A DNA stretch of 64,000 nt from Bacteroidota bacterium (GTDB taxonomy: Bacteria; Bacteroidota; Bacteroidia; M30B66): the NCBI GenBank assembly GCA_027483445.1, contig JAIXUS010000034.1:92495-156494 (forward strand), written 5' to 3'. Position 1 is the stretch's first letter. The number at the start of each line of letters is the position of its first letter. The notes below the pieces were generated by a model. The model did no database searches. It was not told the DNA's origin and saw only the letters and a list, made by a program, of their open reading frames with translations. Shown piece by piece: positions 25,935 through 31,714 of the stretch. Made by a program: the position numbers and the translations under genes.

Positions 25935-27199
25935 TTAAACCAGTTTGTTGATGGCTTCTTGCTTCAGTCGCAACTCTGGCCTTGCTTCCCTACGACTCTC
26001 GTGCAGTTGGAAAGCCCCGGTAAACAACAGCGACACGCCCGCTTCTTCGAGCTTTACTACCCACTTTTTGAGTTCGGGAAGCACAACCCAACCCCGTCGC
26101 ACAACCCGCCCCGATGGGTCGGTAAATCGTCTCCAACCGGCCAGCCGGAAATCGGCCGGAAAATCGTCATCAGCGCCAGCCAGCAACAACTCCAGCGAAA
26201 CATCATCGGCCAAGGGCGAGAGCGAAAGCACCGGTAAATGGGTATAACGATAACTGTAGTTTTCGGCCACCAGCCGCTGTACATCCTTTAAAACCGCAGA
26301 ACCGGTTGGCAGGCTTCCGGCACCTTTGCCGGAGGTAAACCAAGGACCATTGAACGGGAAATCAAACTGCAAAGCGTTGTTCTCCTGAACGATGGTTCCA
26401 AGTCCTTCGCCCACCGGAACCAGCGTAGGCAAAACCCATGATGCAAGCCCCTTTCGGGTTTGAATGCTGCGTGCAACCAAACGAATGCTTTTCCCTTCGA
26501 GCAGCGCCAACTCCCGATCGGCACGACTAAGATTACGAATCGAAAACCGCAACACCTCGTTGGGGTCATTGAGCACGCCAAATCCGTGCAGGTTGAGCAA
26601 AGTGAGCTTGTAAGCGGCATCCCATCCATCCACATCCGATGATGGATCAGCTTCGGCAAAACCAGCTTGCTGGGCCAGCTGCAGGGCTTCATTGAAGCTT
26701 AGACCATCCTGCTCAATCCGGCTCAAAATATAATTCGTGGTTCCATTTAAAATTCCACCAACCGCAACCGGTTTTTCATAGGCGAAATACCGGTCGAGCG
26801 TCTGCAACACAGGAATAGAGGCCGCCACAGCCGCTTCGTACAAAAATGGAGTGTTGGTTTGCCGGCTGAGCCGAACAAGGTCTTCTAACTTTTGAGCGAT
26901 GGCCTTCTTGCTGGCCGATACAACCGGAATTCGCTTCAATAATGCGTTTCTGATGATTTCATAACCGGCCTGCGCATCATTGGTAGCTTCTACCACCAGG
27001 TTTATCTGCGCATCTTCCCACACTGTTGCCGGGTCGTAAACCAGCAAATTCTGGGGCACCGATCGTTTCTTGGTTTTCGACTTCACCACCACATATTGTA
27101 TGGCGATATCGGGATTTTGGCTAGCCTGCAAAAGATTGTAAAATCCTTGTCCAACCACGCCCAAACCAAAAAGGGCTACTTGATATTGAGGTTTTGTGT

Positions 27200-27203
<4 letters not shown>
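25935..27203 (-). CDS. hom: Homoserine dehydrogenase
   Basis: VALFGLGVVGQGFYNLL; VGGILNGTTNYILSRI; FAEADPSSDVDGWDAAYKLTLL. Confidence 0.92.
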
Positions 27204-29567
<2,364 letters not shown>

Positions 29568-29579
29568 TTAAATGGTTAC

Positions 29580-29621
29580 AAAAAGAAAAACGCCCCTTAG
29601 ATGCTTAGATCGAAGGGGCGT
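29580..29621 (-). terminator. Intrinsic terminator of proximal attenuator (between leader ORF and metY)
   Basis: Minus strand ACGCCCCTT-CGATCTAAGCATCT-AAGGGGCGT followed by TTTTTCTTTTT. Confidence 0.85.
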
Positions 29622-29644
29622 CGGATTTACGTTGTTCAGCGTGA

Positions 29645-29752
29645 TCAACATCGGCATAGCCGGTCCCCTTGCAAGCGCACATGCTTACAGCAGCAACACA
29701 TCATGTGTTTTTGTGCAGAGGTTTTGGGGCTATGGGTGAGTTTGGTTTTCAT
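29645..29752 (-). CDS. Proximal leader peptide, 35 aa: MKTKLTHSPKTSAQKHMMCCCCKHVRLQGDRLCRC*
   Basis: Read from the minus strand; Met-Met-Cys-Cys-Cys-Cys run (ATG ATG TGT TGC TGC TGT) upstream of metY and ending 23 nt before the terminator stem. Confidence 0.75.
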   Translation of the reverse strand: MKTKLTHSPKTSAQKHMMCCCCKHVRLQGDRLCRC

Positions 29753-29754
29753 GC

Positions 29755-29784
29755 AAAAAAAAACCCGGCTTTTAGGGCCGGGCT
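29755..29784 (-). terminator. Intrinsic terminator of distal attenuator
   Basis: Minus strand AGCCCGGC-CCTAAAA-GCCGGG followed by 9 T; lies immediately upstream of the proximal leader ORF start. Confidence 0.87.
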
Positions 29785-29812
29785 GGTAGTATGTGGAGTG
29801 AGTTTTATCGGA

Positions 29813-29902
29813 TTATTGACCACAACGTTGCCCGGACGCACGAACGTGCATCATCTTGGAACAACAGCAAAGGGCAGTCTGAATCATGACGCAAAAATAC
29901 AT
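29813..29902 (-). CDS. Distal leader peptide, 29 aa: MYFCVMIQTALCCCSKMMHVRASGQRCGQ*
   Basis: Read from the minus strand; Cys-Cys-Cys and Met-Met codon runs; followed by strong terminator; shares HVRxxGxRxC-like tail with proximal leader. Confidence 0.7.
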   Translation of the reverse strand: MYFCVMIQTALCCCSKMMHVRASGQRCGQ

Positions 29903-29921
29903 GGAGAATAAGGTTCACTTT

Positions 29922-29953
29922 AACACTTAGGCATGAAAAATTCTTTATTCAAA
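29922..29953 (-). promoter_or_regulatory. Candidate promoter of metY-metX-hom leader
   Basis: Minus strand TTTG-N20-TAAGTGTT, approximating the Bacteroidetes TTTG-N19/20-TANNTTTG promoter, ~20 nt before the distal leader ATG. Confidence 0.5.
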
Positions 29954-29976
29954 TGATTTACAGTGGTTTAAATTAA

Positions 29977-30888
29977 TTACGTATGTACTAAATTGTGAAG
30001 TGCCGATTGAAGTTCCGGGTGTTTAAACAGGAAACCGGTGCTGCGCAGTTTGGCATTGGAAATTCGGCTTCCTTCGAGCACCACGGCCGACATTTCGCCT
30101 AAAACAAGCCGTAGGCCCAGCGATGGAACACCAATCGGGAAAACGGGCTTTTTGAGCACTTTTCCCAGGGTTTGCGTAAATGTGCGGTTGCTGCATTGTT
30201 CGGTTGCAGTGGCATTGTATGCGCCACTCCATGCCTCGTTAAAAAGGGCTTCGCGAAAAATGCGGGCGATATCTTCAATATGAATCCATGGAATTTGCTG
30301 CTTTCCGGAGCCTAATACTGCACCAAAACCAAACTTAAACGGTTTCATTAACTCGGGCAGTGCGCCGCCGTTGGCATCAAGTACCACGCCGGTTCTGATT
30401 TTTACAATACGGTTGGCAACAGACGAAAAGTCATCCGCAGCGGCTTCCCAGCGGCGGCAAGTTTCGCCCATAAAATCGATGGCGGCAGGCTCTTCCTCTA
30501 AATGTAACAGCGAGGTAGTTTGCGCTCCATACCAACCAACAGCCGAAGCCGACACAAGCACATTTATGCGTTGCGCCCGTTGCTTCAGTGTATTAAGCAG
30601 CAATTGTGCGGAATTAACCCGCGAGTCGAGGATTTCCTGCTTGCGTTTTTCCGTCCATGGCTTATCGGCAATGCCAGCACCAGCGAGGTGAACAATGGCG
30701 TCAATCTGATCGAGCGCCTGTTGGTCAATTTCGGCCTTTTCGGGGTTCCAGGTAAATGCTGCATCGTAGGGGTTAATGCGTTGCGCCGATCGGCTGAGCA
30801 ACACCAAAGTATGTCCGTCGGCCTTAAGCATTTTTGCCAATGCCATCCCCAACAAACCTGCACCACCGGTGATTAAGATTCTTGCCAT
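29977..30888 (-). CDS. TIGR01777-family NAD(P)-dependent epimerase (SDR39U1-like)
   Basis: MARILITGGAGLLGMALAKMLKADGHTLVLLSRS; VHLAGAGIADKPWTEKRKQEILDSRV; ASAVGWYG. Confidence 0.9.
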   Translation of the reverse strand: MARILITGGAGLLGMALAKMLKADGHTLVLLSRSAQRINPYDAAFTWNPEKAEIDQQALDQIDAIVHLAGAGIADKPWTEKRKQEILDSRVNSAQLLLNTLKQRAQRINVLVSASAVGWYGAQTTSLLHLEEEPAAIDFMGETCRRWEAAADDFSSVANRIVKIRTGVVLDANGGALPELMKPFKFGFGAVLGSGKQQIPWIHIEDIARIFREALFNEAWSGAYNATATEQCSNRTFTQTLGKVLKKPVFPIGVPSLGLRLVLGEMSAVVLEGSRISNAKLRSTGFLFKHPELQSALHNLVHT

Positions 30889-30954
30889 ATGAAAGAAAAC
30901 CCGTAAAGCTTCACAAATGTTTGCCACCTTCGGTCAAAAGGGATTCCCGGGAGC

Positions 30955-30984: not shown

Positions 30985-31006
30985 TGTACCTGCTACGACT
31001 AATGTG

Positions 31007-31714
31007 ATGAAGAAATTTGAGCAACCCCATTGCACTCAATGTGACGCCAGAAATAGGTCGATATTCTGCGACCTGCGCGGCGAAGAGGTTGAATCGCTTG
31101 ATGAACACAAAAACTGTGGAATGTATAAAAAAGGCCAACTGATTTTCAATTCAGGAAGCTACCCACACGGTTTGTTTTGTGTTAAATCGGGTAAAATCAA
31201 AATTTATCGAACCGGTGATGAAGGCAAGGAGCAAATTGTGCGCTTGGCCAAAGAAGGCGATATTTTGGGATACCGAGCCTTACTCAGTGGCGACCGGTAT
31301 TCGTCGTCGGCTGAGGCCATCGACGACGCTCAAATTTGCTTTATTCCTAAAACTTCATTCCTCGGTTTGCTCTCGAGTAACGGCACTTTATCGATGCAAA
31401 TGATGAGACTGCTCTCTGAAGACCTGAAACATGCCGAGCATAAAATTACCGACCTTGCTCAAAAGCCGGTGCGGGAACGTGTGGCCGAAGCCTTACTGTA
31501 CTTGCATCAAACCTATGGTTTGGAAAATGATGGCATTACGATTAGCGTAACCTTAAGTCGCGAAGACATTGCCAACATTGTTGGAACAGCGACCGAAACC
31601 GCCATAAGGTTGCTCAGCGAGTTAAAAAACGACAATATCATCCAACTAAGCGGGAAGAAAATTGCCATTTTGAACCACCGGGAATTGGTGAAAGTGGCCA
31701 ATGTGAATGATTGA
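31007..31714 (+). CDS. Crp/Fnr family transcriptional regulator, Fnr-like N-terminal cysteines
   Basis: CTQCDARNRSIFCDL...C N-terminus; cNMP-binding fold (GQLIFNSGSYPHGLFCVKSGKIKIYRTGDEGKEQIVRLAKEGDILGYRALLSG); HTH SREDIANIVGTATETAIRLLSEL. Confidence 0.9.
   Translation: MKKFEQPHCTQCDARNRSIFCDLRGEEVESLDEHKNCGMYKKGQLIFNSGSYPHGLFCVKSGKIKIYRTGDEGKEQIVRLAKEGDILGYRALLSGDRYSSSAEAIDDAQICFIPKTSFLGLLSSNGTLSMQMMRLLSEDLKHAEHKITDLAQKPVRERVAEALLYLHQTYGLENDGITISVTLSREDIANIVGTATETAIRLLSELKNDNIIQLSGKKIAILNHRELVKVANVND

Follow-up and report, generated by a model that had tools for sequence, protein, structure and literature searches.

In the 64,000-nucleotide stretch of Bacteroidota DNA analyzed here (the window), two short ORFs with runs of Cys and Met codons lie upstream of metY, which raises the question of whether they act as leader peptides that control the operon. 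The gene order metY-metX-hom given in the initial annotation was confirmed by profile matches, with all three genes on the minus strand. The metY product (O-acetylhomoserine sulfhydrylase; 28209..29555) matched TIGR01326 with 652 bits and the hom product (homoserine dehydrogenase; 25935..27203) matched NF004976 with 257 bits, both above cut-off. The metX product (homoserine O-acetyltransferase; 27200..28231) reached 354 bits with TIGR01392, under the curated cut-off of 500, and is a divergent member. According to these matches, homocysteine is made by the products of the three genes. A TIGR01777 gene (29977-30927, minus strand) lies upstream of the leader and is itself adjoined by a gene for a Crp/Fnr-type regulator (cNMP_binding and HTH_Crp_2; 31004-31714, plus strand).

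Both short ORFs were present as originally quoted, at 29902-29813 and 29752-29645 of the minus strand, each then followed by an intrinsic terminator. Leader ORF 1 contains the codons TGC TGT TGT (CCC; 29861..29869, minus strand) with MM two codons further on, and leader ORF 2 (MKTKLTHSPKTSAQKHMMCCCCKHVRLQGDRLCRC*; 29645..29752, minus strand) reads MMCCCC at 29687..29704 of the same strand. Terminator 1, AGCCCGGC-CCTAAAA-GCCGGGTT, whose end runs into nine T, lies at 29755..29784, and terminator 2, GACGCCCCTTCGAT-CTAAGC-ATCTAAGGGGCGTT, which has a T-rich tail, at 29589..29622, both on the minus strand. Only two of the 748 short ORFs starting with ATG (8-80 aa) in the 64-kb window hold a Cys/Met cluster, and these are leaders 1 and 2. 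When the 420-nt leader was shuffled with its dinucleotides preserved, one cluster ORF appeared in 4/3000 shuffles and two appeared in 0/3000. Based on these counts, and on a strand bias of 69 vs 1 in relatives (see below), an origin of the codon runs by chance was rejected. That codon runs and hairpins alike are fortuitous has a negligible probability: in favour of such a reading, this stretch shows no general enrichment of terminator-like sites, but it is contradicted by the conservation, by the bias in strand and by a folding that depends on the ribosome in all units. A pattern-based sample of places with TGY runs in the same genome held no other leader-like site among those inspected.

Where transcription begins bears on the length of leader 1. 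The promoter proposed at the outset, TTTG-N20-TAAGTGTT, is not a match to TAnnTTTG, the -7 box of Bacteroidota. The sequence TATTTTTG at 29892..29899 (minus strand) fits this box exactly and could be aligned with TATGTTTG in the related loci L002 and L003 and with TATATTTG in L034; the -33 element is weak. Since the box occupies positions -12 to -5 relative to the start site (PMC9723704), transcription probably starts at 29887, the A of the second ATG of leader 1. The box itself sits inside the longer ORF that begins at 29902. Leader 1 is thus probably the 24-aa ORF MIQTALCCCSKMMHVRASGQRCGQ* (29813..29887, minus strand), near-leaderless and almost without an untranslated region, so that the ORF originally described does exist, with a length that has probably to be shortened. 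The distance from the box to the ATG is the same in L002, nearly so in L003 and about 20 nt in L034. A second promoter was also looked for, but the interval of the window from terminator 1 to leader 2 contains no TAnnTTTG.

We compared 152 metY upstream regions of Bacteroidota: that of the window, 2 from its family, those of 80 named loci and 69 drawn from across the phylum. In 69/152 regions, metY was preceded by a Cys-rich leader on the coding strand, and such leaders were spread across the class; the reverse strand gave 1 and shuffles gave 0.15. Serial Cys/Met leaders with a terminator after each were found in the window and in L002, L003, L034 and L035. A search for Cys/Met runs in relatives had been set beforehand as a check, and in these four genomes both leaders have counterparts with Cys and Met clusters, the MM of leader 1 being kept together with its Cys codons. 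Counterparts of leader 2 also occur in many Bacteroidota beside a SAM-I riboswitch. Single Met/Cys leaders with terminators were found in L162, L165, L173 and L174. TGT and TGC were mixed in the Cys run of 68/80 leaders, with 62 distinct patterns, which indicates that the amino acid cysteine is conserved and not a DNA repeat. An alignment of the leaders of the five serial-leader genomes had a mean column identity of 54%.

We consider it very likely that this leader contains two trp/his-type ribosome-mediated transcription attenuators in series before metY-metX-hom. Transcription would start just ahead of leader 1. With enough Cys-tRNA (and Met-tRNA), the ribosome would reach the stop codon of leader 1 and cover region 2, whereupon terminator 1 would form and the polymerase would halt. 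Stalling on the Cys/Met codons would instead allow region 2 to pair with the 5' arm of the terminator, and the polymerase would continue to leader 2, where the same starvation test would be repeated. Full expression of the operon would be reached only if both tests read sulfur-amino-acid starvation, an AND-like logic that would repress the operon tightly and multiply its range of induction.

The competing helices are present in the leader RNA. Region 2 of attenuator 1, CCGGGC (29830..29835, minus strand), is complementary to the 5' arm of terminator 1, and region 2 of attenuator 2, AAGGGG (29665..29670, minus strand), to that of terminator 2. A ribosome was placed either on the Cys/Met cluster or at the stop codon, and the RNA beyond it was folded as it would stand before the 3' arm of the terminator has been made; the ribosome edge was assumed to lie 13 nt beyond the first base of the A-site codon. 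A ribosome on the cluster, at all cluster positions tried, left the terminator 5' arm (region 3) sequestered by -3.8 to -15.9 kcal/mol in 16/16 units, whereas one at the stop codon left it free or nearly so (0 to -3.2 kcal/mol) in 16/16 units, including both units of the window. The summed energy of the 16 units was -170.7, while shuffling the sequence in between gave -56.6 (sd 9.2), corresponding to a Stouffer z of -12.4; the ten units from the five serial-pair genomes gave a Stouffer z of -8.4, and with a simpler duplex measure, applied to 13 units, z was -9.5. Within the window, attenuator 1 (-10.4 kcal/mol stalled vs -0.2 at the stop; z -2.5, p 0.025) is better supported against shuffles than attenuator 2 (-6.6 to -8.6 kcal/mol stalled vs -0.5 at the stop), which taken alone was not significant (z -1.0, p 0.15) and whose case for a ribosome-dependent antiterminator rests on the whole set of units. 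The letters of regions 2 and 3 vary among relatives and their complementarity is kept, as in CCGGGC/GCCCGG, GGGGC/GCCCC, CCGAAGG/CCTTCGG and GTGTCTGGA/TCCAGACAC. The spacing from stop codon to terminator is 19-34 nt in 16/16 units and 22-28 nt in the window. By eye, a 1:2 hairpin similar to that of the trp leader could be recognized beside the Cys codons in L034 and L035. A leader ORF with a codon run, a terminator between each leader and metY and, for the units as a set, a ribosome-dependent antiterminator are therefore all found here; this conservation, and an antiterminator dependent on ribosome position in every unit folded, support the duplicated trp/his-style stalling attenuator that the initial annotation had suggested.

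Terminator 1 might merely end the TIGR01777 gene, leaving leader 2 alone to regulate metY. That gene does run in the same direction, with its end about 90 nt ahead of leader 1, but a TAnnTTTG box lies between it and terminator 1, and in L003 no TIGR01777-like ORF ends just upstream. Moreover, in L002, L003, L034 and L035 terminator 1 comes with both a Cys/Met leader and an antiterminator, and in the window it belongs to the attenuator with the better folding support, all of which makes this explanation very unlikely. It is extremely unlikely that the products of the short ORFs are functional Cys-rich microproteins and not leader peptides. Clusters of Cys can bind metal, and the ORFs are conserved as ORFs; against a function of this kind, their sequences are barely conserved outside the Cys/Met cluster, they range from 18 to 55 aa in length, a profile search returned no family match for them, and their place before a terminator and their overlap with region 2 are kept. 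Serial attenuation thus remains the preferred reading of the leader.

In most relatives, the corresponding place before metY is taken by the SAM-I (S box) riboswitch, RF00162: its aptamer was found before metY, or before a short operon including metY, in 130/152 loci. In 58 loci it occurs together with a Cys-rich leader, of which it is the customary companion, a link that the initial annotation had not anticipated; the distance from aptamer to leader ATG has a median of 9 nt, being 14 nt or less in 55/56 loci measured. It is absent from the five serial-leader genomes, none of which gave a SAM-I match. In the window, no RF00162 aptamer was detected at the gathering score or with the local model R1, and between 29540 and 30060 the SAM families gave no match even at E up to 10. 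Likewise, no T-box was found in the window at the Rfam gathering score or among the weak matches of 29540-30060. No other Rfam element reached its gathering score in the window; a Trp_leader hit of 22.8 bits, below the gathering score of 41 bits, reflects only the attenuator-like hairpin.

Several arrangements were seen among the loci with SAM-I. In L046, L047, L050, L077, L081, L104 and about 50 others, the riboswitch is followed about 9 nt on by a poly-Cys leader, usually without an intrinsic terminator, as is the case for most SAM-linked leaders. Chryseolinea and Hymenobacter are among the genera with this combination. In many of these loci, a hairpin and a complement of the Cys codons, GCAACA, can be made out by eye after the leader; RNAalifold returned no pairs for a consensus fold after the leader in SAM-linked loci. 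L087, L105 and L152 carry a SAM-I with its own terminator and then a separate poly-Cys leader closer to metY, forming a mixed series of riboswitch and leader. An OsmC-like gene lies between leader and metY in L040, L058, L070 and L102 (PF02566 tested for L058), where the combined SAM-I and poly-Cys unit probably governs this gene as well. SAM-I alone precedes metY in L037, L038, L043-L045, L053, L054, L056, L059, L060, L062 and L064-L066 (Algoriphagus, Belliella and kin), and in these loci neither a poly-Cys leader nor an intrinsic terminator was found before metY.

The presence or absence of SAM-I also bears on which amino acids may be read. Leaders without SAM-I contain 3.0 Met codons per best 10-codon window vs 1.26 in those with SAM-I (p 6e-5, a value that ignores kinship), in a comparison from which two loci picked for being Met-rich were left out; leaders with SAM-I can still hold 2-4 Met. 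This difference fits a takeover of methionine sensing by leader translation where SAM-I is absent. Together with the Cys codon patterns, the Met-codon counts support, at the level of sequence comparison, the original suggestion that two amino acids are read. Cys is not a direct product of MetY, and Cys sensing is therefore read as a measure of general sulfur status. It is possible, though rather doubtful, that cysteine alone is sensed and that the Met codons are incidental or structural. Consistent with this idea, some of the Met codons are themselves paired, as in leader 2 of L034, where ATGTGCTGT is complementary to ACAGCACAT downstream, and the leaders linked to SAM-I hold mostly Cys and only about one Met. 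Met codons may then act only through initiation or structure, and Met starvation would also slow initiation, blurring a Met-codon signal. The idea is opposed by the Met enrichment in leaders without SAM-I and by L196, a locus of another class that has two serial and nearly pure Met leaders (ITMCMMM and MAMRMMMRM) between -440 and -101 upstream of metY, with a terminator after each. This Met-reading series is apparently independent of that in the window.

In a metY protein tree, the five serial-leader genomes fell in a 12-row group (SH-aLRT 94) together with six loci having SAM-I and a Cys-rich leader and one having neither. Parsimony counted two changes for the serial state on this quick tree with open forks, and the serial state may have a single origin. 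Leader 1 occupies the place held by SAM-I in most relatives, and we infer that a leader-codon sensor including Met codons there replaced a metabolite sensor; the simplest history would be a loss of SAM-I and a gain of leader 1. Units 1 and 2 of the same genome resemble each other with z values of 13.6 in L034, 12.8 in L035, 2.9 in the window and 0.9 in L003, a likeness that would fit a duplicated unit and part of which shared constraint would also produce. A fuller version of this history, which to us has even chances of being right, holds that SAM-I was replaced by a second copy of the stalling attenuator, whose added Met codons took over the methionine signal of the riboswitch, and that the ancestral combination of SAM-I and poly-Cys leader was a two-input device reading a metabolite and a charged tRNA.

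Cys/Met leader-peptide attenuation would act on the main sulfur-fixing operon in a phylum for which there are scarcely any descriptions of amino-acid attenuation. The larger and less expected pattern would be that control by riboswitch and control by ribosome stalling are both exchanged and combined at the same operon. SAM-I alone, SAM-I with a poly-Cys leader, serial Cys/Met leaders and serial Met leaders constitute a natural before-and-after set at one gene, through which the exchange between sensing by riboswitch and sensing by ribosome can be traced and tested at metY.

Leader-peptide attenuation of amino-acid operons is classical in Proteobacteria (trp, his, leu, thr and ilv). The metY leader resembles these attenuators in having a leader ORF with regulatory codons, an antiterminator formed by regions 2 and 3, an intrinsic terminator and a biosynthetic operon downstream, and differs from them in its Cys/Met codons, its occurrence in Bacteroidota, its two complete serial units and a leader 1 predicted to be near-leaderless. 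Within Bacteroidota, short ORFs within long 5' UTRs are described in B. thetaiotaomicron (PMC7366714), and a study of Flavobacterium psychrophilum reported hints that leader peptides attenuate amino-acid operons, with no Cys or Met leaders named in the accessible part of that paper (PMC9723704). The novelty initially inferred for the phylum is narrowed by this general suggestion for F. psychrophilum, and may hold for the Cys/Met and serial form: in the literature searched, where subscription journals are thinly covered, neither a serial Cys/Met attenuator nor a combination of SAM-I with a poly-Cys leader was found to be described.

Polycysteine leaders have been predicted in Actinobacteria, those of mycobacteria being without conserved intrinsic terminators (PMC1262725). 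The mycobacterial leaderless uORFs (Canestrari et al., 2020, as cited in PMC13236596) are presented, in the accessible part of the citing paper, as single elements that read Cys only and act by translational attenuation. The metY leader shares with them Cys-codon runs before sulfur genes and, for leader 1, a predicted leaderless or nearly leaderless start. Unlike them, when compared by description, it is serial and contains both Cys and Met codons, and its intrinsic terminators set it apart from the mycobacterial type, a leaderless Cys-run ORF without such a terminator. Interplay between a B12 riboswitch and a uORF is reported in Mycobacterium tuberculosis (PMC11260477); as far as the accessible text of that report goes, the SAM-I and poly-Cys loci of relatives are similar in joining a riboswitch to a leader ORF and differ in the ligand. 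Finally, tandem attenuators are found in Salmonella mgtCBR, where mgtM reads ATP and mgtP reads proline (PMC3641672). There, as proposed for metY, two short ORFs in one leader each control transcription into the coding region, but while mgtCBR responds to two different signals, both metY units would read the same kind of codons.
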